From NCBI GenBank assembly GCA_002698985.1, contig PAAY01000035.1, positions 1-64,000 on the forward strand: a stretch of 64,000 bases of DNA, in the 5' to 3' direction. The translations under genes were made by a program, and so were the position numbers. The DNA comes from Saprospirales bacterium. Its GTDB lineage: Bacteria > Bacteroidota > Bacteroidia > Chitinophagales > Saprospiraceae. The number at the start of each line of letters is the position of its first letter. Positions within the stretch are counted from its first letter, which is position 1. The notes beneath the pieces are model-generated. The model made no database searches and was not told the origin of the DNA. It saw only the letters and a list, made by a program, of their open reading frames with translations. Positions 7,854-56,690 of the stretch are shown here, one piece after another.

Positions 7854-7898
7854 CGTGACGGGTGATTCGTGACTCGTGACGCGTAACGCGTGACACGA
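7854..7898. repeat. Heptamer array GTGACNN
   Basis: Six successive 7-mers read GTGACGG, GTGATTC, GTGACTC, GTGACGC, GTAACGC, GTGACAC. The array begins 3 nt after the transketolase stop. The same word family recurs in complement at 43619-43731 and in 9-mer form at 31912-32025. Confidence 0.85.
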
Positions 7899-7922
7899 GT
7901 TTCGAGTTGAGCAAAGTATTCC

Positions 7923-7953
7923 CGACAACAGACAACTGATAACTGATAACTGC
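7923..7953. repeat. Heptamer array AACTGAT/ACAACAG
   Basis: Repeated words ACAACAG-ACAACTG-ATAACTG-ATAACTG fill the gap just upstream of the next gene at 7958. Similar ACAACCG heptamers occur at 50336-50395. Confidence 0.7.
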
Positions 7954-7957
7954 CGTA

Positions 7958-8500
7958 ATGCGTCAACTTCTCTCCATCCTTTTTTTCGTCGCAATAGCCA
8001 ATGGGGCCATGGCGCAGGTGCTTGTGGCAGCTTACACGCGTTACGACGACAGCTTTGGCGAATGGTATTTTCTTACGGAAGATGAGGAAGAGGGCACCCT
8101 GAACCTCCGCTGGCTTTTCGAAGAAAACTGGACAGAATGGGATTACCGCCTCGGAGAACTTTCCGGCTCCATCGAACTCAAGTGGAAGGACAGCCCCGAA
8201 GAATGGGAACTCCGTGGCGGGAACCACATCGTCACCGCCCGCACGGTCTGGCCCGGCGACCTGAAAGAGTGGCGCATCAACGATGGTGAACACACCCTCA
8301 CCCTGCGCAGCCGCTGGTCAAACCGACTGGATGAGTGGGAACTGCGCAGCTCCCACGATGGCGACTGGATCATGTACACCGTTTACGAAGGCGACCCAAG
8401 AGACTGGGTCATAGACGACCGCCTGCCGGAAGAATACCCTTTCGAAACCCGCCTCATGCTGGCTTTTCTGGTGCTTTATCATGCTTCGCCGAAACGATGA
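7958..8500 (+). CDS. Secreted Trp/Glu-rich repeat protein, function unknown
   Basis: This 180-residue protein has a signal peptide (MRQLLSILFFVAIANGAMAQ) and about five imperfect repeats of 22-23 residues. Each has a W-E-W-like pair (FGEW, WTEW, PEEW, LKEW, LDEW, PRDW) and a second strand with polar-hydrophobic alternation ending in W (LNLRW, IELKW, TARTVW, LRSRW). The pattern suggests repeated two-strand meander units, perhaps a small beta-propeller or solenoid, and the protein is strongly acidic. I do not recognise the family. It is followed 48 bp later by the T9SS cargo gene at 8549, so they may be co-expressed. The start is set by the signal peptide. Confidence 0.75.
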   Translation: MRQLLSILFFVAIANGAMAQVLVAAYTRYDDSFGEWYFLTEDEEEGTLNLRWLFEENWTEWDYRLGELSGSIELKWKDSPEEWELRGGNHIVTARTVWPGDLKEWRINDGEHTLTLRSRWSNRLDEWELRSSHDGDWIMYTVYEGDPRDWVIDDRLPEEYPFETRLMLAFLVLYHASPKR

Positions 8501-8548
8501 GGTTGAAACAAGATTTCGCCGATAAACCGGAGATTCGTATCATGCGGC

Positions 8549-10810
8549 ATGAATCACCTTTACCCCGACGTTTCGCCGAAGGCTGCAAAACATCTTTGCC
8601 CCCTTCTTTTCCTTGTACTTTCCATTTTTTCGTTCAACAATGAGCTTAACGCCCAATGCCCTGTGGATTACACCCTCGATTCGCAGGCCAAAGTGGATTC
8701 CTTTCCCATTCTGTTTCCCCAATGCAAAGAGCTGGAGGGTGTCCTCACCATCAATGGCGGCGACATCACCAACCTGCAAGCCCTTTCCGGCCTTACGAGT
8801 GTGGAGAACCTGACCATCCAATTCAATTCACAGTTGAGCAGCCTGTCCGGTCTGGATAACCTTGAAAAAATACCTGGCCATTTCGTCCTGAATGTCAACA
8901 ACGGCCTCGAATCCCTCGACGGTTTACAAAATCTGGACTCCATCGGCGGGAGCTTTTACATGAACAACAACCACGACCTGCTCGACCTCGAAGGCCTGAG
9001 CAGCCTGCACACCGTGGGTGGCAAATTCTCCATCATTGGCACCTCCGAACTGCAAAACATGGCGGGGCTGGAGAACCTGTACAAGGTGGGGCAGTTTTTC
9101 ATCAGCAACAATTACAGCCTGACCACCATGGCCGGTTTGGAAGGATTGCGCGAAGTGGATGAATTATCGCTCATCGGCAATTACAACGAAAACTTTGATG
9201 CCTTCGCAAATCTGGATACCATCGGAAAACTGTTGTACATCGCCGACAACTTTTTCCTCACGGACATCAGCGGATTTGAAAACCTGGACGTCATTGCCGA
9301 GGGCTATGTAACCATCAAAAACAACGGCAAACTCAGCAATTGCGCGGCCTATGCCATTTGCGCCGCCATCGCCCTCACTCCTGCCAAGGTGCACATCGCC
9401 AACAACAAACCCGGCTGCGACAACAGTTCCGAGGTATCCTCCGACTGCCTGAACATTTTCAACTTCAATGCAGCCAAAGGGAAGATTTACGCTGACCTGG
9501 ATTGCAATGGCAGCTTTGACAGCACCGATGTAGTGCTTCCAAACCATTTCATCCGCAATGCCACCACCCTAAACCCCTGGGCTGTCACCAATCCTGAGGG
9601 GCAGTACACGCAACTGCTCCCGCCTCAAAGCACCACCATCATTGTCCCCGACAGCATCACAGGATATTCTCCCTACCCTCCCGCTGACACCTTTACCACG
9701 GGAAGTGTCATCCATGTTTTCACCGACAGGGATTTCCGGTTCTGCCCGGACAGCCTGTTTCACAACCTTTCACTGACAGCAATCCCGGTTACGGTGCCGG
9801 TCAGAGGCTTTCCTCAACATTACCAGCTCTGTGTTTCCAACTTCGGAGCCCAGGCCGAGAATGCCACACTCACTTTCACCCTGACAGATACCACCGGTCA
9901 GAATTCCCTCGAGTTTCAGTACCTCGGCGGTGGCACGCTCGACAACTATACCATCACCTGGGAAATCGAAAACCTGAAGCCTTTTGAAAAGCAATGCTTC
10001 AACTTTTCTGTTTTGGTTTCGCCTGCGGCAACTCTGGGTGCCGAATTCGAATTCAAAGCCGAAGTCCAAACCGTCCCTCTCTTTCCGGACACGGAACCTG
10101 ACAACAATGTCGTGATCACCACCCAAACCATCGTCGGCAGCTTTGACCCCAACGACAAAAACGTTGAGCCAAAGGCCCTGCACCACGATGAAACCACCGA
10201 TGGCAACTGGCTCGATTACCTCATCAGGTTCCAGAACACGGGCAATTTTCCAGCAACATTTGTCGAAGTTCTCGACACACTGGAAACCAGCCTCGATTTC
10301 AGAACACTGGAAATGCAGGCTGCCAGCCACGATTACGTACTCACATTTCCCGAAGAGGGCATCCTGAAATGGCGCTTCGACAACATCAACCTGCCAGACA
10401 GCACCTCCGACGAACCCAACAGCCACGGCTACATTGCTTTCCGCATCAAAACGATGCCGGGGCTGGAATTGGACCAGGTGGTCAGAAACCGGGCTGGCAT
10501 CTATTTCGACTTCAACGAGGTGGTGCTGACCAACTACGCCGAAACGAGTTTCTTCCTGGTTTCTACGGTGGAGCCATCCCGTAGCAGTACTTTTCTGGAG
10601 GTCTTCCCCAACCCCTCAAAGCAGCTCATCGTGGTAAAAAAGGCCAGCGCAGTTCCCGAGAAAGCCCACCTGTTTTCTCCCGAAGGGAAACTGCTCAAAG
10701 CGCTTTTGCTGACCGGAAAAGAAACGGCCGTAGATTTGTCCGGCCTGCCCGACGGACTTCTGGTACTCAGAACGGAAACTGGTGCCGTGGCGAAAGTGTT
10801 GAAACGCTGA
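8549..10810 (+). CDS. Secreted T9SS cargo with receptor-L/LRR-like N-terminus
   Basis: This 753-residue protein has a signal peptide (about 1-36, ending NELNAQ). Residues ~50-260 hold leucine-rich, receptor-L-like repeats (GVLTINGGDITNLQALSGL, LSSLSGLDNLEKI, LESLDGLQNLDSI and others). A middle region with internal cysteines is followed by a conserved Bacteroidota domain with GSFDPNDKNVEP and IRFQNTGNFPATFVEVLDTL (DUF7619-like). The last ~75 residues (VFPNPSKQLI to GAVAKVLKR) are a type A type IX secretion sorting domain. It is probably exported and attached to the cell surface, with an adhesive role likely. Its stop overlaps the next open frame by one base. Confidence 0.88.
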   Translation: MNHLYPDVSPKAAKHLCPLLFLVLSIFSFNNELNAQCPVDYTLDSQAKVDSFPILFPQCKELEGVLTINGGDITNLQALSGLTSVENLTIQFNSQLSSLSGLDNLEKIPGHFVLNVNNGLESLDGLQNLDSIGGSFYMNNNHDLLDLEGLSSLHTVGGKFSIIGTSELQNMAGLENLYKVGQFFISNNYSLTTMAGLEGLREVDELSLIGNYNENFDAFANLDTIGKLLYIADNFFLTDISGFENLDVIAEGYVTIKNNGKLSNCAAYAICAAIALTPAKVHIANNKPGCDNSSEVSSDCLNIFNFNAAKGKIYADLDCNGSFDSTDVVLPNHFIRNATTLNPWAVTNPEGQYTQLLPPQSTTIIVPDSITGYSPYPPADTFTTGSVIHVFTDRDFRFCPDSLFHNLSLTAIPVTVPVRGFPQHYQLCVSNFGAQAENATLTFTLTDTTGQNSLEFQYLGGGTLDNYTITWEIENLKPFEKQCFNFSVLVSPAATLGAEFEFKAEVQTVPLFPDTEPDNNVVITTQTIVGSFDPNDKNVEPKALHHDETTDGNWLDYLIRFQNTGNFPATFVEVLDTLETSLDFRTLEMQAASHDYVLTFPEEGILKWRFDNINLPDSTSDEPNSHGYIAFRIKTMPGLELDQVVRNRAGIYFDFNEVVLTNYAETSFFLVSTVEPSRSSTFLEVFPNPSKQLIVVKKASAVPEKAHLFSPEGKLLKALLLTGKETAVDLSGLPDGLLVLRTETGAVAKVLKR

Positions 10811-10842
10811 TGACCCTTGGGGTTTTCACGAATTTCATCGTC

Positions 10843-11262: not shown

Positions 11263-11365
11263 CCGATGGCATTTTATGAATCAGCTCCGTGCCAGCGATG
11301 GTCTCATTTTCCCAACTTCTTTCACCGGCACATACCCATTTAGGGACCTGACCCGTTATGGGTGC

Positions 11366-11944: not shown

Positions 11945-11976
11945 AGGCATACTCTGCCTGGTGCCGCTCTTGCCCG

Positions 11977-13296
11977 TCACCCCAGCAGCCACCACGCCAC
12001 CAACACCAGCAATGCAGCTGACAGGCCCAGCACTGCCGTACCCAGGGTGTGCAGCCGGTAGCCCTTTCCGACATCCATACCGGTCATTTGGGTGACCACC
12101 CAGAAGAAACTGTCGTTGGCATGGGAAACCACCAGCGAGCCGGCGCCAATGGCCACCACGCTGAGCGCTTTGCTCAGGTCAGAATCGAGGCCCAGGGCTG
12201 GCAGCAAGGGTGCCACCACCGAGGCAGTGGTAATCATAGCCACGGTGGAAGAACCCTGCGCCGTCTTGAGTGCAGCAGCTACGATAAATGGCAGCAAGAT
12301 GCCGAGACTGACGCCTTGCAGGTGCTGACTGATGACATCGCCCAGGCCGGAGTTTTGCAGCATTTTACCGAAGATGCCCCCGGCACCCGTCACCATCAGG
12401 ATGACGGCGGCGCTCTTCAAGGCCTCCCCCACCCATCCGCTGCCGGACAGCATGTGCTTTTCCAGTTTCTTCGGCAACAACAGCGCAAAGCCCAGGCCCA
12501 CCAACAGGGCTATTACCGGAGTGCCCAAAAGGTTGACGACATCAGCGGCCGGGCCGGATCTCAGAAAGGAGAAATGGTCGTTCAGGCTTTTCAAAACGAT
12601 GAGCAAAATGGGAATGCCAATGGGTAAAAAGGCCTTCCAGGCTGGCGGCATGTCATGTTCTTGTTCCTCAATTTGTGGGGTTTCTTCGTCAATGGGGAGG
12701 CTCACCCGGGCAGCATACCATTTTGCGAAGAAAATGGCCGGGATAAGGGCCACCAGACTGACGCCCAACCCTGCCAGAATGACCAGCCCAAGATTGGCCC
12801 CGATGATGCCTGCCGCTGCGATGGGTCCTGGCGTTGGTGGCACCATGGCATGGCTGGCCAGCAGACCCAGAGCCAGCGCGATGGCGGTGCCAGCCAACCG
12901 CTTGCCGGCTTTTTTCGTCAGCGCCTTGTTGAGGGGGTGCAGGATGATGAAACCGCTGTCGCAAAATACCGGGATGGAGACAATGTAACCGATCAGCCCC
13001 ATGGCAGAGTGGAGCCGCTTTTCCCCTATCACGGATAATACTTTCGATGCCAGCGCCTGCGCTCCACCCGTATGCTCCAGAAAGGCCCCGATGATCACCC
13101 CCATCACGATGACCAGACCGATGCTGCCAAGTATGCCACCGAAGCCGTCTTTCACCGACTGCAAAACCAACTCAACCGGCATGCCGGCCAAGAGCCCATA
13201 AGCCAACGCCCCCACAAAGAGCACCAAAAAAGGGTGCACCTTGAACCGCACCGTTCCGACGATGATGAGGAGGATGGAGAGGAAGAGTAGCAGCAT
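11977..13296 (-). CDS. gntP: GntP-family gluconate/organic acid:H+ symporter
   Basis: This 439-residue inner-membrane transporter has about 12-14 hydrophobic segments. Family blocks are IPVFCDSGFIILHPLNKAL, SHAMVPPTPGPIAAA, KTAQGSSTVAMITTA and VVSHANDSFFWVVTQMTGM. The family carries gluconate, related sugar acids or glycerate. No gluconate kinase is next to it, so the substrate is open. The charged cytosolic loop near residues 205-220 (EETPQIEEQEHD) is acidic. The 247-bp gap upstream (13297-13543) holds only T-rich degenerate repeats and a short palindrome. Confidence 0.92.
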   Translation of the reverse strand: MLLLFLSILLIIVGTVRFKVHPFLVLFVGALAYGLLAGMPVELVLQSVKDGFGGILGSIGLVIVMGVIIGAFLEHTGGAQALASKVLSVIGEKRLHSAMGLIGYIVSIPVFCDSGFIILHPLNKALTKKAGKRLAGTAIALALGLLASHAMVPPTPGPIAAAGIIGANLGLVILAGLGVSLVALIPAIFFAKWYAARVSLPIDEETPQIEEQEHDMPPAWKAFLPIGIPILLIVLKSLNDHFSFLRSGPAADVVNLLGTPVIALLVGLGFALLLPKKLEKHMLSGSGWVGEALKSAAVILMVTGAGGIFGKMLQNSGLGDVISQHLQGVSLGILLPFIVAAALKTAQGSSTVAMITTASVVAPLLPALGLDSDLSKALSVVAIGAGSLVVSHANDSFFWVVTQMTGMDVGKGYRLHTLGTAVLGLSAALLVLVAWWLLG

Positions 13297-13537
13297 GGAG
13301 ATGTTGTTTTAGATGGTTATTGGAAGGTTTTTTAAGGTTTTTGGGGCACCGGACAGAGTCCGGCGCCAGCGGGTTTTATGTTTTAGGTTTTTGGTGGGTT
13401 TTTATTGGGGTTTTTGTGGTGTTTTCAACAATCCGTGGAATCCGGTAATCCGTGAAAATCCGCGATTCTGAAAAAGAAAAAGATGTCTGAATCGCAGATG
13501 AAACGGATTTTTGGATTGCGCTGATCGAGGCACCAAT
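13297..13537. repeat. Intergenic GGTTTTT-rich degenerate repeats with palindrome
   Basis: No gene is seen. The stretch has repeated GGTTTTT words (for example AAGGTTTTTGGGG, TAGGTTTTTGGTG, GGGGTTTTTGTGG) and the 13-bp palindrome CGGACAGAGTCCG at 13353-13365. The same palindrome, in complement, appears near 41083. A segment with CCGTGGAATCCGGTAATCCGTGAAAATCC repeats the CCGTGRAA word found at 38.1-38.4 kb. Confidence 0.55.
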
Positions 13538-13560
13538 CATCCCTCATCCCTCATCCATGA
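13538..13560. repeat. Heptamer array CATCCCT that enters the GH16 gene
   Basis: Three tandem CATCCCT units. In the minus orientation (AGGGATG) they encode the last residues and the stop codon of the GH16 gene (GAT GAG GGA TGA). The same word occurs at 16433, 46548, 46627, 47835, 48000 and 48780. Confidence 0.85.
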
Positions 13561-14529: not shown

Positions 14530-14534
14530 CGCGC

Positions 14535-16037
14535 ATGAAAAACGAGCTACTTATTCACAACAGTCTTACCGGAAAAAAGGAAGTTTTCACCCCATTGCAC
14601 GAGGGCCGTGTGGGCATGTATGTATGTGGCCCTACGGTTTACAGCGATGTGCACCTTGGCAACTGCCGCACTTTTGTCAGCTTCGACGTGGTGTACCGCT
14701 ATTTCCAATACCTCGGCTACAAGGTTCGCTACGTGCGCAACATCACCGATGTGGGACACCTGGAAGGGGATGCCGACATTGGACGTGAGGACAAGATTTC
14801 CAAAAAGGCCCGGCTGGAAGAGCTGGAGCCCATGGAAATTGTGCAGCGCTACATGAACGGCTTTCACGACATGATGAAGGTCTTCAATGTGCTGCCCCCC
14901 AACATAGAACCCCGCGCCACCGGCCACATTCTGGAACAGATTGACATGGTGCAGGCTATTCTGGACAACGGCCTGGCTTACGAAGTGAATGGCTCGGTTT
15001 ATTTCGACACCATCAAGTTTGAAGAGAAGTACGGCGTTTACGGACAGTTGTCCGGCCGGAAGATAGAGGAGCTTTTTTCAGAAACGAGGGACGACCTGAA
15101 GAACCAGTCAGAAAAACGCCACCCATCTGATTTTGCCATCTGGATCAAAGCCGATCCGAACCACCTGATGCGTTGGAAGTCGCCCTGGTCGGTGGGTTTT
15201 CCGGGCTGGCACCTGGAGTGCTCCGTGATGAGCACCAAATACCTGGGTGAGACTTTCGACATCCACGGTGGTGGCAACGACCTGAAATTTCCGCACCACG
15301 AGAATGAAATAGCGCAGAACATCGGCGCATGCGGACATGCCCCCGCCCGCTACTGGATGCACGGCAACATGCTGCTGCTCAACGGCCGCAAAATGGCCAA
15401 AAGCGAGGGCAACAGCATCATGCCGGGCGAGCTCTTCACGGGCAACAGCCCGCACATCAGCAAGGGCTATTCACCCATGGTGGTGCGCTTCTTCATGCTC
15501 CAATCGCACTACCGCAGCACCCTGGACCTCACCGACGAGGCCCTGCAAGCCGCCGAAAAAGGCTACCGCCGCCTCATGGAGGGCAACAAGGTGTTGCAGT
15601 CCCTCGCCCATCCGGGCAACGGCGCCGCAGGCAAACTGGACGAGGAGATCAACGCCACCATCGATCAGGCTTTTGCGGACATGAACGACGACTTCAACAC
15701 CCCAAGGGCCCTGGCCAGCCTCTTTGAACTCGTCACCAAAATCAACAGCCTGAAAGCCGGCCAGCTCGCCATCACCGACATTACCGAAGACACCCTGAAC
15801 CGCCTGAAAAAGACCTTCAACGATTTCATCAACGACATCTTCGGTCTGCGCGATGAAATGGCCGCCACCTCTGGCGATGGCGTTATAGAAGGTCTGATGG
15901 AACTCATCCTCGAAATCCGCCAGGAGGCCCGCGCCCGCAAAGACTGGGCTACCTCCGACAAGATCCGCGATGCCCTCAAAGCACTGAACATCGTGGTGAA
16001 AGATGGGAAGGAAGGAACGAGCTGGCATTTGGAGTAG
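14535..16037 (+). CDS. cysS: Cysteine--tRNA ligase
   Basis: This 500-residue class I aminoacyl-tRNA synthetase charges tRNA-Cys. The zinc-site Cys31 lies in [11 protein letters not shown], the HIGH-type motif is H40-L-G-N43, the KMSKS-type loop is K286-M-A-K-S290, and [17 protein letters not shown] supplies H254/E258 with C229 as further zinc ligands. The C-terminal helical anticodon domain carries [18 protein letters not shown]. Length is normal (about 460-500). The final codons GAG TAG merge into a GTAGGGT heptamer array. The promoter box ends only 5 nt before ATG. Confidence 0.97.
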
Positions 16038-16088
16038 GGTGTAGAGTTTAGGGTGTAGAGTTTAGGGTGTAGGGTTTAGGGTTTGGGA
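16034..16088. repeat. Heptamer array GTKTAGR at the cysS stop codon
   Basis: Seven-base units alternate GTGTAGA, GTTTAGG, GTGTAGA, GTTTAGG, GTGTAGG, GTTTAGG, GTTTGGG. The TAG stop of cysS is part of the first unit. It is followed by GAGCTGGATCCGTGAAACTCC, a diverged form of the linker seen at 38.1-38.4 kb. The same array recurs at 38099, 38190, 38308, 46579 and, in complement, 47970. Confidence 0.88.
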
Positions 16089-31449: not shown

Positions 31450-31917
31450 ATGGAAGAACTCCTCAACAGCTTACCCCAGATTGGCCGGGTGGAATACATC
31501 AGCATTCGCCCCGAACGTAAAGCCCCCGTTGAATACGTGCCCGAAGTGGAGGCCATGCCCGGCAAGGGACTCAAAGGCGACCATTACCAGGGAAAAAGCG
31601 GAAAGCGGGAAGTGACCCTCATCCAGTTTGAGCACCTGCAGGCCGTCGGCAAAATGCTCGGCCGGGCCGCCATCGAACCGGGCCTGACCCGCCGCAACAT
31701 CGTGGTATCCGGCATCAACCTGCTGGCCTTTGCGGATCGCCAATTCCGCATCGGTGAGGTGGTACTGGAAATGACCGGCCACTGCCACCCCTGTTCCAGA
31801 ATGGAAGAAAACCTGGGCCCCGGTGGCTACAACGCCATGCGCGGTCACGGCGGCATCACTGCCCGCATCGTCCAAGGCGGCACCATCCACGTCGGTGATG
31901 AGGTGAAGCTGGCGTGA
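31450..31917 (+). CDS. MOSC-domain protein
   Basis: This 155-residue stand-alone MOSC domain has IGRVEYISIRPERKAPV, the charged GLKGDHYQGK loop, VTLIQFEHL, LTRRNIVVSGINL and the Cys motif TGHCHPCSRM (C112/C115). The conserved Cys is thought to bind sulfur or pyranopterin-Mo. Such domains act as sulfur carriers or in detoxification of N-hydroxylated compounds (YiiM/mARC relatives). It could serve Mo-cofactor chemistry, but it is not in the oxidoreductase operon. Its last codons GCG TGA already belong to the following GTGACRRAC array. Confidence 0.92.
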   Translation: MEELLNSLPQIGRVEYISIRPERKAPVEYVPEVEAMPGKGLKGDHYQGKSGKREVTLIQFEHLQAVGKMLGRAAIEPGLTRRNIVVSGINLLAFADRQFRIGEVVLEMTGHCHPCSRMEENLGPGGYNAMRGHGGITARIVQGGTIHVGDEVKLA

Positions 31918-32025
31918 CGGGCGTGACAAACGTGACGGACGTGATGAACGTGATGAACGTGATGAACGTGACGGGCGTGACAAACGTGACGGACGTGACA
32001 ATCGTGATGAACGTGATGAACGTGG
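31912..32025. repeat. Nine-base repeat array GTGAYRRAC
   Basis: About twelve tandem 9-mers (GTGACGGGC, GTGACAAAC, GTGACGGAC, GTGATGAAC x3 and so on) begin inside the MOSC stop region. In the 7-mer form the same GTGAC word is found at 7854-7898 and in complement at 43619-43731. Confidence 0.88.
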
Positions 32026-32027
32026 TA

Positions 32028-32087
32028 TAACCCTCATAATCCATATAATCCCTATAATCCTCATAATCTTCATAATCCTCCTCATTG
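32028..32087. repeat. Nine-base repeat array ATAATCCNT
   Basis: Units ATAACCCTC, ATAATCCAT, ATAATCCCT, ATAATCCTC, ATAATCTTC, ATAATCCTC run up to the next gene. The ATAATCC word recurs as 10-mers at 37867 (complement), 50396 and 56318-56690. Confidence 0.8.
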
Positions 32088-35326: not shown

Positions 35327-37780
35327 ATGAGAAAGAAGCTGACGACAAACCTACTAAGCCTGCTGCTCTGTCTGGCGGGCACACAAGTACTTTTTGCGCA
35401 GAATGGAACCATAAGCGGAAAGGTGAGCCTTTCAGGTGAAGATCTGCCATTGGAAGGCATTGCGGTGTTCCTGGATGGCACCAACTACGCCGACATCACC
35501 AACAGCCAGGGCTTGTACAAGATTACCGGCATACCATCCGGAAAGTACAAGCTGGTTTCATCCAGTATTGGCTACAACACTTTCAGCAAGGAAATCACCA
35601 TCAATGGCGATGAATCGCTGACCATAGACATCCCACTCGTGGAAACCGTCCTTGGGCTGCCGGAGGCGGTAGTGGCCAGTGTATCGCTCACCGGCGGTTT
35701 GCGGGGGCTGAAAAACGTTCCGGGTTCAGCACATTACCTGTCGCCCCTGGAACTGGAAACTTTCAGCTACACCGACATCAACAGGGCGCTGGGTGCCGTG
35801 CCGGGGGTAAACATTCAGGAAGAAGATGGCTTCGGCCTGCGGCCAAACATTGGTTTGCGGGGCTCCGGTTCTGAGCGGAGCGCCAAGATCACCGTAATGG
35901 AAGATGGCGTATTGGCAGCACCTGCCCCTTACGCCGCTCCCGCTGCTTATTACTTCCCCACCATGGGCCGCATGCAGGCTGTCGAAATCCTCAAAGGCAG
36001 CAGCCAGGTGCGTTTCGGACCATACACCACGGGCGGCGCCATCAACCTGATCTCCACCGCCATCCCCGACCGCTTTTCCGGTAAAGTGGACCTGCTGGCC
36101 GGTGAGTTCGGCACCCGCAAGCTGCACGCCTGGGTGGGCGACAGCCACAGAAATGTAGCCTACGTGGTGGAGACCTTCCAACTGCTTTCCGACGGCTTCA
36201 AAAAACTGGATAATGATGGTCCCACAGGCTTCGACAAAAAGGACTACCTGGCAAAATTGCGTCTCAACACCGGCCCCACTGCCAGCGTGTACCAAAGCCT
36301 GACTTTCAAAATCGGGCAAACCACCGAAGCCAGCAATGAAACCTACCTCGGCCTGAGCGACCAGGATTTTGAAAAAACACCCTATCGCCGTTATGCCGGC
36401 TCGCAAATGGACCTGATGAAAACCGAGCATCAGCAGTACAGTGTGCAGCACTTTGCTGAGTTCTCTTCGAAACTGGACCTGACCACCACGGCCTATTACA
36501 ACAAGTTTCACCGCAACTGGTACAAACTGGACAAGGTGGTGGACAGCAGCGGCCAAAAAGTGGGCATCGCCGGTCTGGTCAATGACCCCGTCACCTATGC
36601 GGAGGCCTTTTCCATCGTCAACGGAGCAAGCAGCCAAAACGATGAAGCCCTGCAGGTGAAGGCCAACAACCGCAGCTACAAATCCAGGGGTGTGCAAACG
36701 GTTCTCGGCTTCCGGCCATCTGCTGCCCATACTTTCGACCTGGGCCTTCGATTCCACAAAGACGAACTAGACCGCTTCCAATGGGTTGACGCCTACCGCA
36801 TGGACAACGGCGTGATGGAACTGACCAAGCCTGGCACCCCCGGCACTGAAAGCAATCGCCTCGAATCAGCTACCGCTTTTGCGGCTTACCTACAATACAA
36901 ACTCAAAATCGGACAGTGGACTTTCATCCCGGGTGTGCGCTATGAAAACATCGAACTGGCCCGGAAGGACTACGGCAAAAACGACCCGGAACGCACCGGC
37001 GCCGATCTTTCGGAACGCAGCAACCAGGTGGATGTCCTCATCCCCGGTGTGGGTGCCACCTACCAACTGAACATGGAAACAGCTTTCTTCGCCGGTATCC
37101 ACAAAGGCTTCGCTCCTCCCGGCTCCAAAGAAGGCACCCAACCTGAGAGCAGCATCAACTACGAGGCAGGCCTTCGCTACCGCAAAGGCGTGCTCTCTGC
37201 CCAGGCCGTGGTCTTCATGAACGACTACGACAACCTGCTGGGTGCCGACCTTGCTGCTGGCGGTGGCACCGGATCAGGCGACCTCTTCAACGGTGGCGCT
37301 GCACAAACCAAAGGCCTGGAACTGGAAGTGACCTACGACCTGCTCGGTGATAAGAGCGGCCTCGGCCTGCCCCTGCACCTCTCTTACACATTCACCGATG
37401 CTCATTTCCACAACAGCTTCGACAGCGATTTCGAAGGCTGGGGCACCGTTGCCGATGGCGATGAACTGCCCTACCTGGCCAAACACCAACTGGCCCTGCA
37501 AGCTGGCTTCCGATTCAATGACTTCAGCGCCAATCTCAACCTGCGCTACCAGAGCGACATGCGCACCGCTCCCGGCCAGGGCGACATCCCCGCCAACGAA
37601 CTCATCGAAGGATATACAGTGATTGATTTTAGTACCCAATACCAACTGAGTAAACAAGCGGCGCTGTTCCTCAGCGTCAACAACCTGACCGACAGGGTCT
37701 ATGCCGTTGCCAGAAACCCGGCAGGCCTGCGTCCCGGCCTCCCACGCATGGTGCTGGGTGGTGTGAAGGTGAGGTTTTGA
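35327..37780 (+). CDS. FecA-type TonB-dependent receptor
   Basis: This 817-residue outer-membrane receptor has a signal peptide (ending QVLFAQ) and a carboxypeptidase-regulatory-like domain (~25-105, ISGKVSLSGEDLPLEGIAVFLDG). The plug has DINRALGAVPGVNIQEEDGFGLRPNIGLRGSG and VEILKGSSQVRFGPYTTGGAIN, closely like ferric dicitrate receptors. The barrel ends RPGLPRMVLGGVKVRF. It probably imports a ferric carboxylate or siderophore; the ligand is inferred from likeness to FecA. A strong terminator follows at 37834-37868. Confidence 0.93.
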   Translation: MRKKLTTNLLSLLLCLAGTQVLFAQNGTISGKVSLSGEDLPLEGIAVFLDGTNYADITNSQGLYKITGIPSGKYKLVSSSIGYNTFSKEITINGDESLTIDIPLVETVLGLPEAVVASVSLTGGLRGLKNVPGSAHYLSPLELETFSYTDINRALGAVPGVNIQEEDGFGLRPNIGLRGSGSERSAKITVMEDGVLAAPAPYAAPAAYYFPTMGRMQAVEILKGSSQVRFGPYTTGGAINLISTAIPDRFSGKVDLLAGEFGTRKLHAWVGDSHRNVAYVVETFQLLSDGFKKLDNDGPTGFDKKDYLAKLRLNTGPTASVYQSLTFKIGQTTEASNETYLGLSDQDFEKTPYRRYAGSQMDLMKTEHQQYSVQHFAEFSSKLDLTTTAYYNKFHRNWYKLDKVVDSSGQKVGIAGLVNDPVTYAEAFSIVNGASSQNDEALQVKANNRSYKSRGVQTVLGFRPSAAHTFDLGLRFHKDELDRFQWVDAYRMDNGVMELTKPGTPGTESNRLESATAFAAYLQYKLKIGQWTFIPGVRYENIELARKDYGKNDPERTGADLSERSNQVDVLIPGVGATYQLNMETAFFAGIHKGFAPPGSKEGTQPESSINYEAGLRYRKGVLSAQAVVFMNDYDNLLGADLAAGGGTGSGDLFNGGAAQTKGLELEVTYDLLGDKSGLGLPLHLSYTFTDAHFHNSFDSDFEGWGTVADGDELPYLAKHQLALQAGFRFNDFSANLNLRYQSDMRTAPGQGDIPANELIEGYTVIDFSTQYQLSKQAALFLSVNNLTDRVYAVARNPAGLRPGLPRMVLGGVKVRF

Positions 37781-37833
37781 TTTAGCTTCGCCGGCCGCCG
37801 CCGGCAACTGAAGGATTTATCGATGGTTTACAC

Positions 37834-37868
37834 AACTGACAGCTTTTATCGGCTGTCAGTTTTTTTTT
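37834..37868 (+). terminator. Rho-independent terminator after the FecA-like gene
   Basis: AACTGACAGC / GGCTGTCAGTT with a 7-nt loop is followed by eight or more T. Confidence 0.93.
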
Positions 37869-38442
37869 GGAGGGTTTTGGAGGGTTTTGGAGGATTATGG
37901 AGGATTATGGAGGATTATGGAGTTTAGCAGGAATACAATGCTAAACTCTGTTTTCAATGCTGCTTACTCTGCGGTTGAAAAATGGAGTAGAGAGTAGAGA
38001 GTAGGGAGTAGAGAGTAGAGAGTAGGGTTGGAAGCGCTAGCAGGAATACTCTGTTCAACTCTGTGTCAAAACTCTGTTTAACTCTGCGGTTGAAAAAGTT
38101 TAGAGTTTAGGGTGTAGGGTGTAGAGTTTGGGGGGCGCTAGCTCCGTGGAACTCCGTGTCAGAACTCTGTTTAACTCTGCGGTTGAAAAAGTTTAGAGTG
38201 TAGGGTGTAGAGTTTAGGGTTTGGGGGCGCTAGCTCCGTGGATCTCCGTGCTAAAACTCCGTGGAACTCCGTGTAATAACTCTGTTTAACTCTGCGGTTG
38301 AAAAAGTTTAGAGTTTAGGGTGTAGGGTGTAGAGTTTGGGGGGCGCTAGCTCTGGGCAACTCCGTGTCAGAACTCTGTGGAACTCCGTGTCAAAACTCTG
38401 TTTAACTCTGTGGTTAAAAGAACAGAGTTTAGCAGAATCAAC
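37869..38442. repeat. Composite short-word repeat region with ~100-bp higher-order repeats
   Basis: No gene is present. It begins with 10-mers (GGAGGGTTTT x2, GGAGGATTAT x3), then 7-mers GTAGAGA/GTAGGGA (37985-38028). Three copies of a module follow, starting at 38070, 38163 and 38278, with a partial copy at 38394. Each module has AACTCTGTTTAACTCTGCGG, a GTTTAGA/GTGTAGG heptamer array, a GCGCTAGCTC core and CCGTGGAACTCCGTG words. Spacing between modules is 93, 115 and 116 bp. Confidence 0.9.
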
Positions 38443-38510
38443 TACGAGCTACGAGCCACAGCCTGCCCCGAGACCTCGGGGAGCTACGAGCTAAAAGCTA
38501 AAAGCTAATC
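38443..38510. repeat. Heptamer array AGCTACG/AGCTAAA split by a palindrome
   Basis: AGCTACG and AGCTAAA units run into the amidase gene and give its stop codon. They are interrupted by the perfect palindrome CCCCGAG-AC-CTCGGGG (38466-38481). A related AGCTCAT/AGCTCGT array lies at 50150-50187. Confidence 0.8.
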
Positions 38511-40799: not shown

Positions 40800-41125
40800 A
40801 ATCCGGCGGTGAAACTACGAGGAACCCCGTAAGGGTAAAAGACGATTGGAGGATTTGAGCCCCGAAAGCTTTCGGGGGAAGATTTGAAGAACTGAGGAAC
40901 CGAAGATTTGAGGAACCGAACCCCGAAAGCCGATATCCCGATCCCGAAGGATTTCGGGATTCGGGATCGGGATTCGGGGTCGGCTTCGGGGGAGGAATCG
41001 AGCCGGGTAACCAGGCATGGAAGGAGCCGATCCCAAGCTGGTTCCGGACTCCGTCCGGGACCACATCTTGTCGGACTCTGTCCGACTTTTGTCCAGTAGG
41101 AATAACATCTTTCAACGAGGATGAT
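40800..41125. repeat. Intergenic repeats with nested palindromes
   Basis: No gene is seen. GAAGATTTGAGGAACC words repeat around 40849-40920, split by the 18-bp perfect palindrome CCCCGAAAGCTTTCGGGG (40860-40877). A CGGGATTCGGGATCGGGATT region (40925-40990) can fold back on itself. CGGACTCCGTCCG and CGGACTCTGTCCG palindromes lie near 41048 and 41083. The 18-bp palindrome recurs exactly at 47818-47835. Confidence 0.75.
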
Positions 41126-41126
41126 A

Positions 41127-41192
41127 CTTTTTGCAGTGCGCTCAGGATTTGAAGAACTGAAGATTTGAGGATTGAGTGCACTGCAAATAGTC
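41127..41192. repeat. Small inverted-repeat element (MITE-like) with ACTATTTGCAG ends
   Basis: ACTTTTTGCAGTGCGCTCA (41127-41145) and the complement of ACTATTTGCAGTGCACTCA (41174-41192) match at 17 of 19 positions around a 28-bp centre made of GAAGATTTGA words. The same ACTATTTGCAG word, again as an inverted pair, occurs at 57842-57985. Confidence 0.6.
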
Positions 41193-41282: not shown

Positions 41283-41337
41283 GCGAAACCTCTCTAAACC
41301 TCTCTAAACCCCTCTAAACTTCTCTCAACCTCCCCCC
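41283..41337. repeat. Ten-base repeat array CTCTCTAAAC
   Basis: Four to five units of ACCTCTCTAA type run directly into the DUF2807 gene's stop codon. On the minus strand the array is GGTTTAGAGA-like. Confidence 0.75.
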
Positions 41338-43538: not shown

Positions 43539-43542
43539 GATT

Positions 43543-43603
43543 GAAGGTTTTGTTGTGAGGTTTTTCAAAGGTTTTTCTGAAGGTTTTTCGAAGGTTTTTA
43601 GAA
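43543..43603. repeat. GGTTTTTCNGAA repeat array upstream of the barrel gene
   Basis: Four to five units of 11-13 bp (GAGGTTTTTCAAA, GGTTTTTCTGAA, GGTTTTTCGAA, GGTTTTTAGAA) lie in the 5' region of the gene starting at 43538. Confidence 0.75.
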
Positions 43604-43618
43604 TCATCACCCTCCCCA

Positions 43619-43731
43619 CGTGTCACGCGTTACGAGTTACGTGTCACGTCTGTCACGCCCGTCACGTCTGTCACGCTCATCACGTCCGTCACGCGTTACG
43701 AGTCACGTGTCACGCCGTCACGCTCAAAACC
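43619..43731. repeat. GTCACGN heptamer array at the end of the STN protein gene
   Basis: More than twelve GTCACGY/GTTACGA words occur in 7- and 9-bp register. The array is the complement of the GTGAC arrays at 7854 and 31912. It ends next to the stop codon of the STN/repeat protein gene. Confidence 0.85.
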
Positions 43732-46401: not shown

Positions 46402-46661
46402 TTTTTGAAGCCGTTTCGAGTGTTAGATGCGGGCAGTTTGGTCTCCCCCCTATTCAGCTTGCAATTTTATTTTTTCTTTTTGAAACCGGAATGGTATGGG
46501 GAGTAGGGAGTAGGGAGTAGGGAGTAGGGTTTGGAGGTGCTGGCTCTTTCATCCCTCATCCCTCATCCCTCACCCCAGGTGTAGGGTGTAGAGTTTAGAG
46601 TGTAGAGTTTGGAGGTGCTAGCTTTTTCATCCCTGATCCCTCATCCCTCATCCCTAACTTT
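46402..46661. repeat. Composite heptamer arrays upstream of the FecR gene
   Basis: No gene is present. GTAGGGA units (46499-46532), GGAGGTGCTGGCTC, CATCCCT units (46548-46574), GTGTAGG/GTTTAGA units (46579-46611), GGAGGTGCTAGCTT and CATCCCT units (46627-46656) follow in order. The last part repeats the first with a period of about 79 bp. The module order matches 37.98-38.4 kb and, in complement, 47.81-48.02 kb. Confidence 0.88.
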
Positions 46662-47812: not shown

Positions 47813-48025
47813 GGATGCCCCGAAAGCTTTCGGGGGAGGGATGAAAGAGCTAGCCCCTCCCAACACTACTCCCTACTCCCTACTCTCAATAACCGCAGAG
47901 TAAAACAGAGTTATCTCACAGAGTTCCACAGAGTTTTTTCACGGAGTTGGACCGACCTAGCATCTCCAAACCCTACACTCTAAACTCTACACCCTACACC
48001 AGGGATGAGAGATGAGGGAATAAAT
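47812..48025. repeat. Composite heptamer arrays in reverse orientation, with palindrome
   Basis: No gene is present. AGGGATG words are split by the perfect palindrome CCCCGAAAGCTTTCGGGG (47818-47835). Then come GAAAGAGCTAGCCCC, CTACTCC heptamers, AACCGCAGAGTAAAACAGAG words, GGAGTTGGACC, the CCCTACACTCTAAACTCTAC array and AGGGATGAGAGATGAGGG. This is the reverse complement of the module order at 46.5 kb and 38 kb. Confidence 0.88.
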
Positions 48026-48778: not shown

Positions 48779-48826
48779 GTTCATCCCTCATCCCTGATCC
48801 CTCATTCCTGTTCCTGTTCCTGCTCC
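48779..48826. repeat. CATCCCT and TGTTCC repeat array inside the 3' end of the DUF983 gene
   Basis: CATCCCT, CATCCCT, GATCCCT, CATTCC are followed by three TGTTCC-like 6-mers. On the minus strand they encode the tail GTGTGMRDQG and the stop codon of the DUF983 protein. Confidence 0.8.
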
Positions 48827-50137: not shown

Positions 50138-50141
50138 GCGC

Positions 50142-50149
50142 CAAAGGTA
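50142..50149 (-). promoter_or_regulatory. -7 box abutting the hydrolase start codon (leaderless candidate)
   Basis: On the minus strand TACCTTTG-GCGC-ATG. The first bases of the box are shared with the last AGCTAC unit of an upstream heptamer array. Confidence 0.5.
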
Positions 50150-50492
50150 GCTCATAGCTCATAGCTCGTAGCTCGTAGCTGGTAGTTGATTCTGCTAAAC
50201 TCTGTTCTTTTAACCACAGAGATAAACAGAGTTTTGACACGGAGTTCCACAGAGATGAAAGAGCTAGCCCCCTCCCTACTCCCTACTCTCTACTCCCTAC
50301 TCTCAATAACCACAGAGTTGAACAGAGTATTCCTGCTAACCGACAACCGACAACCGATCCCGGGCGAAGCCCCGGGAACAACCGACAACCGACAACAACC
50401 TCCATAATCCTCCATAATCCTCATAATCCTCCATAATCCTCCATAATCCTCCATAATCCATCATAACCCTCCACAATCCATCACCAACCTCC
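50150..50492. repeat. Composite short-word repeat region
   Basis: No gene is present. In order there are AGCTCAT/AGCTCGT heptamers (50150-50187), CTCTGTTCTTTTAACCACAG words, GAAAGAGCTAGCCCC with CTACTCC heptamers (to 50320), and ACAACCG heptamers (50336-50395) split by the palindrome CCCGGG-CGAAG-CCCCGGG. ATAATCCTCC 10-mers (50396-50490) end just before the AarF gene. Confidence 0.88.
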
Positions 50493-50493
50493 T

Positions 50494-50501: not shown

Positions 50502-50505
50502 GCGC

Positions 50506-52611: not shown

Positions 52612-52767
52612 AGGTTGTTGTTTTGTGAGGTAAATTAATGTAAAATGATGACCCTCAGTAAATTTTGTCCTCACAATTTTGACAACATTTCTTTGAGCGG
52701 TCGGCAAGTGTGAGCAACAGGTCGATTTGAAAAAAGGTCTTAGCTACCCCTGATTTTCAACAGCTAG

Positions 52768-52775
52768 TAATTTTG
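52768..52775 (+). promoter_or_regulatory. -7 promoter box for the U32 peptidase gene
   Basis: TAATTTTG matches TAnnTTTG, 50 nt before the ATG at 52826. The -33 element is weak. Confidence 0.4.
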
Positions 52776-52825
52776 CGGCCGGCCTCCCATTTCCGTAAGG
52801 GAAAACAAACCAACAGCCATCCAAA

Positions 52826-54306: not shown

Positions 54307-54399
54307 AAGCCTTACTCCGCTTTTTCAACAGGTTGAGGAGCCCGGCTCTACTGCCACCACATTATTGTTCTTCATCGCAAAAAACGCTTTAGTCCAGTG

Positions 54400-56205
54400 C
54401 TACACATCGATCCCCATCTGCCTCATCAGCAGGGTGGCATTGAAACTCTTGCTGACCCCTTTGCGGACTTTGTAATCGAAAAAGAGCTCACCGTTTCTGA
54501 TCTCCACCTCCATGCAGAGGTTTTCGATGGCGCCATTGGCCTCGGCTTCCATTTTGCCCAGTTCCAGGTCGTGTGTGGCAATCAGCCCACCGCCCTGCAG
54601 CCGGATCAGTTGCCGGATGAGGGCAGCCGCACCGGTGTGGCGGTCCACGGAGTTGGTTCCTTTCAGAATTTCGTCGAGCAAAAAGAAAACCGGCAACTTT
54701 TGCGAGTCCGGCTCATTGGCTGCCTTCACGGCATCGATGATCACCTTGAGCCGCTTCAGTTCAGCGTAAAATGAGGAGGTGCTTTCGCTCAGCGCATCCT
54801 GTGTGCGCATGCTGGTGTAAACCTGCATCCGGGGCAGCGAAAACCGTGCGGCACAAACCGCACTGCCCGCCTGAGCCAGCACCATGTTGACACCGACCGT
54901 CCTGAGCAGGGTGCTCTTGCCGGCCATGTTGGAGCCGGTGATGAGCTTGATGTGGCCACGGGAGGGCATGGAAAGGTCATTGCTGACGCAGTGCTCCGGA
55001 TGAATAAGCGGATGGCCGATTTCCACTGCTGTTATTTCGTTCGCTTCGCAAAACTGCGGCAGGGTCCAGCCGGGGCGATTGTGCCAGGCATTGGCCAGGC
55101 TGCTCAGGGCCTCAAATTCGTGCATGGCCTCAAACCACCGGAGCAGGCGCTCTTTGTGCAGCATTTTCCAGCGCTCCAGTTTCAGCACCCATTGCAAATC
55201 CCACAGTCCCCAGACATTGAGGAAGATGGCAAAAAAGTTCATCCGCACATTGAGCTGGCTGATGATGTAGCCCAACCGCCGGATGTTTTGCGAAGCGGAA
55301 TACCCCCCTTCGGAAAAATAGCCATGCATCTGTTGCAACAGCGGTGCTTCAAACTGCCCCCTTTCAAGGTGATCGATCAAGCTTCCGTAATGCTGGAGCA
55401 TGTCCACTGCATGGCTGGTGCGCCGGTGGATTTCGTCCACGCCTGGCATGGTCTGCCGGATGATGAGCCCGGCCGGAATTAAGGTAAGCAAGTAAATGGG
55501 CCAGGGAATGTACAGCACCCAGGCTGCCAGCGCCACAGCCGACCACAGCGGGATCAGCCAAAGCGCTGCCTTCAGCAAAGGCTTTTTCAGCACCAGGTAA
55601 TCATCTCCGAGCCAGGCCTGGATGAGCTGCACGTTGGCCGGGTTGTCAGAAAGGGTTCCCGATAGAGCCTGGAGGTTTTGCCGCCAGTCCAGCCGGGTTT
55701 TCAGTTCGGCCACTGCCGCCTGCCGGGCATGGATTTCCTCCGGTGCCGCCGGAGCCGTGAGGTAGCCGGCAAGCCTGCTTCTTCCGCCCGAGGTGCCGGC
55801 CCGGCAGAGGAACTGAAACAACGAATGCCTGCCGAAAACATCGAGATCGCCGCTGTACGGATGTTTTGCATCCATGAACTCATTGCCTTCGTAAAATGCG
55901 GAGAGGTCCATGTCGAGCGCCCGCAGCTCCAGGTCGTTGACGGTTTTTAGTTGCTCGTTGTGGCGGGCCAGTTCATTGATGCCCTGGTGCCACCGCATGA
56001 CCCGGTAAAAAGCGGCCAGAAAAATCATGAAAAACAAGGCTCCTGCCCACCAATGCCAGTCAGCCAGCCACAGCACCACAGCCAGTCCACCAATGAAGCT
56101 GACCAGTCGCACCCAGGCAAAGCGGATGTACTTTTTGCGAAGGCCTGCAGCCCTCTCCTCAAACTGCTCCATCCGGGAGCGATACAGTTGTTTCAGTTGT
56201 TCCAA
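54400..56205 (-). CDS. Membrane-anchored MutS-like ATPase
   Basis: This 601-residue protein ends in a MutS-type ABC ATPase domain with Walker A G424-SNMAGKST-432, Walker B VFFLLDE (about 506-512), TNSVDRHTG and the His loop IATHDLEL. It lacks the mismatch-recognition domain, and the N-terminal half has two pairs of transmembrane helices (about 31-68 and 210-248). A role in DNA mismatch repair is therefore doubtful; MutS-related proteins of this type are common in Bacteroidota and uncharacterised. The start is TTG 56205 (in-frame stop just upstream), or ATG 56172. Confidence 0.88.
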   Translation of the reverse strand: MEQLKQLYRSRMEQFEERAAGLRKKYIRFAWVRLVSFIGGLAVVLWLADWHWWAGALFFMIFLAAFYRVMRWHQGINELARHNEQLKTVNDLELRALDMDLSAFYEGNEFMDAKHPYSGDLDVFGRHSLFQFLCRAGTSGGRSRLAGYLTAPAAPEEIHARQAAVAELKTRLDWRQNLQALSGTLSDNPANVQLIQAWLGDDYLVLKKPLLKAALWLIPLWSAVALAAWVLYIPWPIYLLTLIPAGLIIRQTMPGVDEIHRRTSHAVDMLQHYGSLIDHLERGQFEAPLLQQMHGYFSEGGYSASQNIRRLGYIISQLNVRMNFFAIFLNVWGLWDLQWVLKLERWKMLHKERLLRWFEAMHEFEALSSLANAWHNRPGWTLPQFCEANEITAVEIGHPLIHPEHCVSNDLSMPSRGHIKLITGSNMAGKSTLLRTVGVNMVLAQAGSAVCAARFSLPRMQVYTSMRTQDALSESTSSFYAELKRLKVIIDAVKAANEPDSQKLPVFFLLDEILKGTNSVDRHTGAAALIRQLIRLQGGGLIATHDLELGKMEAEANGAIENLCMEVEIRNGELFFDYKVRKGVSKSFNATLLMRQMGIDV

Positions 56206-56230
56206 TGTCGTCAGTTAATTTGGGAAAGGG

Positions 56231-56238
56231 CAAACCTA
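56231..56238 (-). promoter_or_regulatory. -7 promoter box for the MutS-like gene
   Basis: On the minus strand TAGGTTTG matches TAnnTTTG, 25 nt before the TTG start at 56205. Confidence 0.4.
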
Positions 56239-56317
56239 AGTAAGTCAAAATCAATGAGGAGCTCTCTGGTCGAATCCTTTGTGCACCACTCAACGGGGTG
56301 AGCAAGAAACAGAAACT

Positions 56318-56690
56318 TCATAATACTCTATAATCCCCTTAATCCTGGATTCTCCCGGCAACCTGAAGGTCGCCTAACTGGCACAGCCTACCTGTCCGTT
56401 GGCCAGACGGGAAGGCTATGCTACTCTACCAACAGAATAATCCGCATAATCCTCCATAATCCTCATAATCCCGGCAACCTGAAGGTCGCCTAACTGGCAC
56501 AGCCTGAAGGCTATGCTACTCAACCAACCCCATAATCCCCATAATCCTTATTATCTTCATTATCCCCTTAATCCCGGCAACCTGAAGGTCGCCTAACTGG
56601 CACAGCCTAAAGGCTATGCTACTAAACCAACCGCATAATCTCTATAATCCTTATAATCCCCATAATCCTCCAAATACACCCGGACACCCA
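56318..56690. repeat. Three ~60-bp hairpin units interleaved with ATAATCC arrays
   Basis: No gene is present. Copies of a unit beginning CCCGGCAACCTGAAGGTCGC lie at 56354, 56470 and 56573, and each ends with GGCTATGCTACT. Each contains two short palindromes, ACCTGAAGGT and AGCCTGAAGGCT. In copy 1 the second palindrome holds an extra ~22 bp that is itself palindromic (CCGT-TGGCCAG-ACGG). Between units lie ATAATCC words in 7-10-bp register. Confidence 0.9.

Follow-up and report, generated by a model that had tools for sequence, protein, structure and literature searches.

Heptamer arrays between the genes of a Saprospirales bacterium share a fixed relative polarity and a partial order

Introduction

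Tandem arrays of 7-bp units of the kind described here are called STRR in cyanobacteria, and our subject is a large set of such arrays, built from many different words, that lie between the genes of a Saprospirales bacterium (GenBank assembly GCA_002698985.1). They were noticed in the first 64,000 bp of contig PAAY01000035.1 (the window), which is the start of contig C41 of the genome referred to below as G000 (4.83 Mb in 102 contigs). Heptamer repeats have been described in Bacteroidetes before: TAACTGA direct repeats are present in five of them (MacGregor 2015, PMC4679880), and the same paper states that the intergenic regions of some Bacteroidetes hold other heptamer repeats or larger assemblages, with Gramella, Aequorivita and Elizabethkingia among those concerned. 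The suggestion in an earlier, sequence-only reading of the window that such arrays were undescribed in Bacteroidota is therefore withdrawn. A further kind, the G-quadruplex heptamers GGGNATC of Xanthomonas and Nostoc, often lies within 50 bp of a stop codon or the start of an open reading frame, has 83% of its repeats at the same gene context in a relative, and occurs both singly and as inverted pairs (Rehm 2015, PMC4692102). Heptamer arrays, their intergenic bias and their site conservation are known already from these sources (PMC4679880, PMC4692102), as are modular ordered elements from BOX (PMC3049150).

What distinguishes the present arrays is a grammar: families of different words stand in a fixed relative strand, follow one another in a partial order and are joined by recurring linkers. 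A literature search, to which most subscription journals were beyond reach, gave no account of polar, ordered heptamer families or of a polar sentence of nine families. We read the arrays, with a probability of about 0.6, as modules of one dispersed, strand-polarised composite (a 'sentence') that changes through local duplication and through exchange from locus to locus and is neutral or selfish.

Reality and extent of the arrays

In the window Tandem Repeats Finder reports 55 rows, and they show the words and periods that had been read from it before: all of the families then named, at least ten and mostly of 7 bp, are seen, and far above chance. From the repeat rows 32 distinct places were picked, four of them centred in called genes; two of these (13537 and 48781) are just at a gene end, and two (39589 and 51544) are inside a gene and outside the word families. 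Self-match at a lag of 7 in the window is 0.318 in intergenic against 0.241 in coding DNA, and a period-based scan of 464 kb of G000 found 51 period-7 arrays in 84 kb of intergenic sequence, none in 379 kb of coding sequence and none in five dinucleotide shuffles of the intergenic set, with 20 arrays of period 10, 15 of period 9 and none of period 11. Counted as overlapping places over the whole genome, CATCCCT doublets number 108 + 83 and ATAATCCNCNATAATCC 172 + 193; the reversed controls are 0 + 0 for the latter and 61 + 58 for the former, which is high because CATCCCT spelled backwards is GTAGGGA read on the other strand. These results confirm the earlier observation, with the corrections given below.

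The closest named relative is a Saprospiraceae metagenome-assembled genome (MAG) with contig JALWSS010000193.1, and the sister species genome is referred to as G003; the ABC1 kinase is 88% and CysS 96% identical between the two, and collinear DNA about 77–89%. Arrays were annotated from twelve defined core words in 503 kb of G000 and 221 kb of G003 (about 10% and about 4% of their bases), a strict array being a run of at least three cores. There are 162 strict arrays in the G000 sample, of which 28 lie in the window in 10 intergenic regions, and 89 in the G003 sample; one shuffled G000 control gave none, and reversal of the sequence gave 21 runs, 20 of them from the mutually mirroring families CATCCC and GTAGRG. 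Array centres lie more than 15 bp inside a called gene in none of the 162 and one of the 89, the gene positions in this and all other array counts being those of our own simple, non-standard caller. Strict arrays occur in 61 of 261 intergenic regions and cover 5,675 of 91,088 intergenic bases (6%), so that they cannot be said to fill the intergenic DNA, as had been claimed. The claim that words occur in both orientations stands for the nine main families across the 503 kb, each being represented on both strands, and fails within the window for ACAACCG, AACTGAT and CTCTCTAAAC, which are found there on a single strand only.

An origin of the arrays as assembly artefacts is unlikely, because a second genome, the MAG G003, bears arrays at the same sites with a different sequence. 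We note single Ns within the repeat units of one sentence of G000 (contig C2, about 87,077–87,270), which perhaps reflect unresolved strain variation.

Polarity, order and linkers

When all pairs of different families within a region are compared (strict arrays), 288 of 296 stand in a fixed relative strand, and polarity is uniform in 47 of 52 multi-family regions. The separately listed families are thus real but not independent, and the independence that the term 'simple repeat' assumes, without being a stated criterion for it, does not hold here. With relaxed annotation and arrays no more than 90 bp apart, each of the following pairs shows one relative strand throughout: GTAGRG/AACTCYG (74 of 74), CATCCC/GTAGRG (45 of 45) and ATAATC/AACTCYG (13 of 13). 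The strand convention was drawn from the same data, and the rule was hence tested by fitting it on contig C2 alone. On C2 it accounts for 109 of 109 pairs. Elsewhere in the G000 sample it predicts 79 of 91, and in G003, on contigs non-collinear with that sample (among them C186, which has a single 914-bp match at 73%), 48 of 49. The best strand fit to all the data reaches 290 of 296 pairs, against 162–180 of 296 in 20 strand-randomised sets.

Word order is partial. The GGATTAT words precede GAGCYAC/GTCAC words 20 times to 0, GTAGRG precedes them 27 to 0 and AACTCYG 16 to 1; CATCCC follows GTAGRG 28 to 6, AACTCYGTG and GTAGRG alternate (39 to 49), and GTCAC words are final in all 16 uniform multi-family regions that hold them. 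In the sense direction a full sentence starts with GGATTAT(GGA), GGTTGTC or GTTGTAR words, often followed by the short linker TTAGCAG(G)AAT; in its middle AACTCYGTG alternates with GTKTAGR/GTAGRGA, the two being joined through GGTTAAAAAGT and TTTGGRGGNGCTAGC; and it ends in CATCCCT words and then GAGCYAC or GTCAC words. Most loci carry a partial sentence only.

The linkers recur with their neighbours: TTTGGRGGNGCTAGC stands after GTAGRG arrays, GGTTAAAAAGT before them, and TTAGCAG(G)AAT ahead of AACTCYGTG or GAGCYAC words, and a TAGRG array adjoins the GCTAGC site in 43 of 61 cases in the G000 sample and 14 of 18 in that of the sister. All but two of the 61 array regions match another array region (best match 379 bp at 83.6%, matches being found in both orientations and helped by the tandem words), and Tandem Repeats Finder gives higher-order repeats of 115, 103, 93, 54, 27 and 21 bp in the window. 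Sentences run both ways along the contigs, and their direction switches without visible runs.

Comparison with the sister species

Comparison of the two species covers the 35 orthologous intergenic regions, out of 261 in the G000 sample, that could be lifted to G003. Arrays are present in both genomes in 10 of these, in neither in 22, in G003 only in 3 and in G000 only in none. The 10 shared sites compare with 3.7 expected, a number that 0 of 10,000 permutations reached, and when only the 25 regions of at least 100 bp in both genomes are taken the 10 are set against 5.2 expected and again lie above all permutations. Each sister contig that matches the window is collinear with it.

The contents of shared sites have changed: eight of the ten have a common family and strand, and nine differ in their list of families or blocks (as read from the table of sites). 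For example, the sentence at 37,780–38,504 in G000 runs from GGATTAT through four GTAGRG and four AACTCYG blocks to GAGCTAC; its G003 counterpart starts with a single GGATTGT, goes on with twenty CGGTTGGC-type units and closes with GAGCTAC. Variants are also biased by species. Steps of 9 bp occur in 11 of 15 GTGAC arrays of G000 against 0 of 5 in G003 (p 0.008). GTTTAG units are found in 42 of the 52 GTAGRG arrays of G000 and in 7 of the 36 of G003 (p 1e-8). For the joint variant GGAGCTAGC the figures are 5 of 50 loci in G000 and 12 of 27 in G003 (p 0.001), tallied by hand from a listing with 66 of 72 G000 places and 37 of 37 G003 places. Sister species that share sites but differ in their words offer a natural setting for measuring word turnover, exchange between loci and duplication.

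Other differences between the genomes were seen in passing. Three places in G003, on contig C129 at about 12,371–12,475 and about 550–640 and on contig C193 at about 1,400, carry a MITE-like element (about 105 bp, ends TATACTC/GAGTATA) that G000 lacks there, and G003 holds about 18 kb extra between the same matches that flank window positions 52612–52807.

Distribution in the genus and beyond

Sixty genomes were searched, 14 genus members and 46 others. The joint TTTGGRGGNGCTAGC occurs 72 times in G000, 37 times in G003 and in none of the other 58, and GTAGGGA triplets (read off the reversed control) are likewise confined to G000 and G003, 2 of the 60. CATCCCT triplets are present in 11 of the 14 genus genomes and 0 of the 46 others. 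Other genus members have heptamer arrays of different words, including GATTTAC, AATCCGC, ACTGCCA, GATTGAC and GTCATTG.

Same-word inverted partners stand beside 14 of 51 arrays in the other genus members, nine of these 14 arrays being from G012, and beside 2 of 156 in G000 and G003 together; the former count is biased upward because the G011 stretch and three of the four G012 stretches were chosen for listed CATCCCT. CATCCCT and GTAGGGA are plain complements of each other, and we suggest that the core GTAGGGA - GCTAGC - CATCCCT may derive from such an inverted pair in which the left arm changed its word.

Across 14 species, arrays after cysS are clear in 6, faint in 3 (G007, G008 and G013) and not evident in 5 (by eye); the clear ones have GTGTAGG-type words in G000 and G003 and GATTTAC- or ATTGCGG-type words in G001, G005, G011 and G012. 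In the gap between cysS and the next gene several species have arrays that end just ahead of the next start codon (by eye). Around the ABC1 gene, among seven other species, repeats lie upstream in G008 (GTCATTG words) and in G010 (an inverted pair, GACTGAAG-type) and downstream in G007 (an inverted pair of TTTGA-rich repeats), with none visible in the rest (by eye).

Among 395 Bacteroidota genomes, 4 have GTAGGG triplets and 4 have the reversed control, identical with the CATCCC word; G000 is in both sets, and the CATCCC word is abundant in two further genomes. Viral contig stretches have GTGTAGGG triplets in 2 cases and CATCCCT triplets in 17. In G440, from another family of the same order, GGGAGTA, GGTGAGT and GGGCAGT heptamers stand with an inverted partner, and arrays of several heptamer words are thus also found beyond Saprospiraceae.

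Gene ends and stop codons

Of the 243 arrays that lie between called genes in the two species together, 37 come to 10 bp or less from a stop codon (9.7 expected at random) and 9 come as close to a start codon (7.9 expected). Stop and array share a register in 14 of the 37, compared with 3 of 225 stops in array-free regions. In G000 the stop of cysS is the TAG of a GTAGGG word (by eye), although this case failed the strict register test that its sister counterpart passed; in G003 the last sense codons as well as the stop fall within the array (by eye). These data agree with arrays that extend as far as gene ends, and a little way inside them, where the word gives a stop. A broader rule, that both ends of a sentence supply stops to the genes reading inwards, was dropped because it fits GTAG, CGTGAC, GTAGCTC and AGGGATGA words and not GGATTAT and GGTTGTC.

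Arrays are found between convergent, divergent and codirectional genes. In codirectional regions the sentence is sense in 27 and antisense in 29, and polarity is not locked to gene direction. The role in transcript ends proposed earlier thus receives indirect support from the proximity to stop codons, and none from polarity.

Origin of the arrays

The fixed relative strand and the partial order lead us to regard the arrays as modules of one polar dispersed composite, and this structural part of the reading is very likely. The copies would descend from a composite that arose in the common ancestor of both species, built from heptamer arrays that may be older in the genus, and the number of units would shift through local tandem duplication. 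Homologous exchange without crossing over, for which the arrays themselves would provide the homology, could carry words, linkers and interiors from one locus to another; it would preserve polarity and order and leave gene order untouched. Elements would be kept out of genes by selection, often reaching the stop codon, which in part of the cases the word would itself give (TAG in GTAGGG, TGA in CGTGAC). The polarity, order, linkers, conserved sites, collinearity and species-biased variants fit exchanging copies of one composite. Chances that exchange between loci is the motor seem to us about even, and the elements are probably, by a modest measure, neutral or selfish rather than useful.

Several observations weigh against this interpretation. 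Species clustering is present for the GTAGRG, GTGAC and AACYG families and absent for GAGCYAC, ATAATCC, AACTCYG and CATCCC, four of the seven families tested, and GTAGRG arrays are slightly more alike between orthologues (0.581) than within species (0.516), a sign of plain descent. Near-identical long tracts, the direct sign of recent exchange, are rare, with at least 95% identity in just 2 of 686 matches of at least 80 bp within G000 and 8 of 306 in G003. Identical units are not clustered at lag 1 in the GTAGRG arrays of G000 (42 of 157, permuted mean 43.9), as they are in those of G003 (157 of 255, permuted mean 115.4). A clean empty site with an insertion boundary was not seen in the aligned orthologous sites, and at C2:77619 the ends of the sentence are not kept, GGATTAT being first and GTCAC last where the sister has GGTTGGC and GAGCYAC. 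Polarity too has its exceptions: five of the 52 regions are mixed, and the 12 G000 test pairs that failed comprise nine with the CTCTAAAC family, whose strand had been set by two C2 pairs, both in mixed regions, and is opposite to that of the full fit, and three with the AACYG family.

Other explanations take different parts of these data as their starting point. The arrays could be independent simple-sequence repeats, grown by slippage at each array with a polymerase favouring 7 bp and the families untied; period 7 indeed dominates, as a study quoted in PMC4679880 states for bacteria generally, and higher-order duplications are present. However, identical words stand at hundreds of places, relative polarity and order are fixed, linkers recur, and variation is limited to certain positions of the unit; in the AACYG family, for instance, GTT is constant in 89 of 89 units and another position variable in 60 of 89, units not being independent samples. 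Polarity and order are expected from descent with homologous exchange or from directional synthesis and not from slippage alone, and as a full account independent repeats fail because the polarity test contradicts them, which leaves this explanation most improbable even if slippage is a likely component. Directional synthesis could come from a trans-acting machine (a reverse transcriptase that copies a repeat template, or some other system of primer and template) that adds words to DNA ends in one direction from a small set of RNA or DNA templates, and a change of template would rewrite arrays genome-wide and leave their sites unchanged. Polarity that is kept on either strand of insertion, a mosaic order with joints, and the change of word and unit length (7 or 9 bp around GTGAC) over many loci between sister species all agree with this. 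We nevertheless give it very little weight: the genome has a single RVT_1 match at E ≤ 0.001, which seems from its sequence to belong to a group II intron, and the composites at separate loci are diverged rather than identical.

Selection for function is unlikely too, if a good deal less remote. On this view each core word would be the target of a nucleic-acid-binding protein (a cold-shock protein, S1 or a nucleoid protein), and the sentences would have a part in forming 3' ends, in translation or in organising the chromosome, with selection keeping the sites, cores and polarity; a binding protein has been proposed for the TAACTGA repeats (PMC4679880). Consistent with this are the sites conserved across the two species, the arrays that are clear by eye after cysS in 6 of 14 species, if with different words, the core positions that are fixed while spacers and unit length vary, and the arrays that begin at stop codons. 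It is harder to reconcile with a polarity unlinked to gene direction, with the presence of arrays in convergent, divergent and codirectional gaps alike, with wholesale replacement of words at some sites, and with inconsistent RNA folding, since five sense stretches with the joint gave z-scores of -1.90, 0.03, -1.45, -0.40 and -4.87. An RNA-level element was rejected on the same grounds, as these five together with one antisense stretch and one sense stretch with a palindrome span z-scores from -4.87 to 0.85 with no consistent structure; the only known RNA family in the window at gathering level is 16S rRNA. A miniature transposon (MITE-like) of the sort suggested for BOX and BrickBuilt, with internal minisatellites and moved by a transposase acting in trans, would account for elements that are dispersed, intergenic, in both orientations, modular and variable in tandem copies. 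Yet no terminal inverted repeat or target duplication is evident by eye in the aligned sites, a systematic search for ends not having been part of that inspection, and the one Y1 transposase match in the genome has no apparent link to the elements. We consider this origin improbable; mobilisation by many REP transposases was discarded for the same single Y1_Tnp match. How one heptamer comes to occupy hundreds of places in a bacterium has no agreed account, and the fixed grammar of the composite makes the question testable.

Features of the window

The word arrays of the window are collected in Table 1. Among the sites listed, the stop of cysS is at the start of the array at 16034, and the longest sentence is that at 37868.

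Table 1. Word arrays and sentences in the 64,000-bp window
Feature	Position	Strand	Remarks
GTGAC array 7855-7896 (5 cores), then AACTGAT array 7934-7954 (3 cores)	7855-7954	-	Reverse sentence past stop codon ending 7851; sister here has GTAGCTC and CAACCGC arrays
CATCCC array, about 3 units	13537-13556	+	End of gene called from 13544
GTGTAGR/GTTTAGR array	16034-16084	+	Begins at cysS stop codon 16035-16037
9-bp CGTGACNNN array (12 cores), then ATAATCC array (5 cores)	31914-32078	-	Reverse sentence overlapping stop 31915-31917; sister has 7-bp GTGAC array
GGAGGATTAT array, GTAGRGA array, four AACTCYGTG blocks alternating with three GTKTAGR arrays via GCTAGC joints, GAGCTAC/AGCTAAA words	37868-38508	+	Longest window sentence; sister keeps the same ends, with a 20-unit CGGTTGGC-type array within
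CTCTCTAAAC 10-bp array	41286-41332	-	
AGGTTTTT array, then GTCAC (GTGAC reversed) array	43542-43723	+	Adjoins stop codon of gene at 43724
GTAGGGA - GCTGGC joint - CATCCCT - GTKTAGR - GCTAGC joint - CATCCCT	46499-46655	+	Divergent genes flank; matches sister C141 sentence
GCTAGC joint with CTACTCC array, CACAGAG words, CTCTAAACCCTACA array	47840-48000	-	Reverse sentence
CATCCC array	48781-48814	+	End of gene called from 48788
GTAGCTC, CACAGAG, GCTAGC joint, CTACTCC, CACAGAG, ACAACCG with inserted palindrome, ATAATCCTCC	50147-50479	-	Reverse sentence; sister's starts and ends with the same two families (by eye)
ATAATCC 9-bp arrays with hairpin-rich copies of an about 60-base unit between	56320-56668	-	

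Repeats of other kinds lie among or near the arrays. The hairpin-rich unit of about 60 bases (GGCAACCTGAAGGTCGCC ... AGCCTAAAGGCT ...) is present at 56353–56640 in three copies between the ATAATCC arrays, with an extra hairpin in the first; an Rfam comparison of this unit (56.3–56.7 kb) gave no family beyond chance and one chance-level match. Another dispersed repeat family, not of the word kind, is represented at 41033–41171, where about 135 bp have at least 20 matching places in the sister, nine of them no more than 300 bases from the first base of a contig. Nested palindromes, with one palindrome within the loop of another (e.g. CCCCGTGCCGATG...CATCGGGG), occur at 40930–41000 and in G003 at C92:53404–53970, and simpler palindromes lie within word arrays, between whole units. 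The palindrome-like GACGTTGCAGTGCAACGTC at 5643–5661 is one that we take to resemble the palindromic repeats of filamentous cyanobacteria.

Comparison with known repeat systems

The arrays share with the STRR type a tandem 7-bp unit, intergenic location and abundance above chance. They resemble the repeats of Beggiatoaceae, Cyanobacteria and some Bacteroidetes described by MacGregor (PMC4679880) as 7-bp intergenic direct repeats at many sites, and the word itself is present: there is an AACTGAT array at 7934–7954, and the two species have AGTTATC units, the word being a minor variant within one family. There is one word in that case, which in the main genome lies mostly upstream of start codons, and the text of PMC4679880 as available mentions no fixed polarity, order or linkers of several families. 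The present arrays show no such preference for start codons, the excess being at stops, although in some other genus members arrays do end near a start codon (by eye). The GGGNATC repeats are also heptamers, mostly intergenic, near gene ends and conserved in site, but are of one G-rich kind where several families are found here (PMC4692102). Runs of three Gs in register, as a G-quadruplex would need, are present in CATCCC and GTAGGG units only, and not in ATAATCC, AACYG, GTGAC or GAGCYAC.

The modules of BOX are much longer than units of 7–10 bp. As a dispersed composite of ordered modules (boxA, a variable tandem boxB and boxC), BOX of Streptococcus pneumoniae (PMC3049150) is similar in plan, and here too modules keep an order, if a partial one, with variable numbers of tandem copies. 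It differs in that only its middle module is tandem, whereas each module here is an array of 7–10 bp units, and in its terminal inverted repeats (PMC3049150), none being evident by eye at the sites aligned here, where ends were not searched for systematically. BIMEs and REP (PMC2817692) are likewise mosaic composite repeats between genes, composed of palindromes in alternating orientation and linked to a transposase, in contrast to the one polarity per region seen here; the palindromes that do occur are insertions inside arrays, there is the one Y1_Tnp match, and no REP core turned up, no search having been aimed at such cores. BrickBuilt of Porphyromonas gingivalis (PMC4596501) is a Bacteroidota example, a minisatellite element with a leader and a tail that is always intergenic, and differs from the polar sentences in having a single 23-bp unit, 19 places and inverted-repeat ends.

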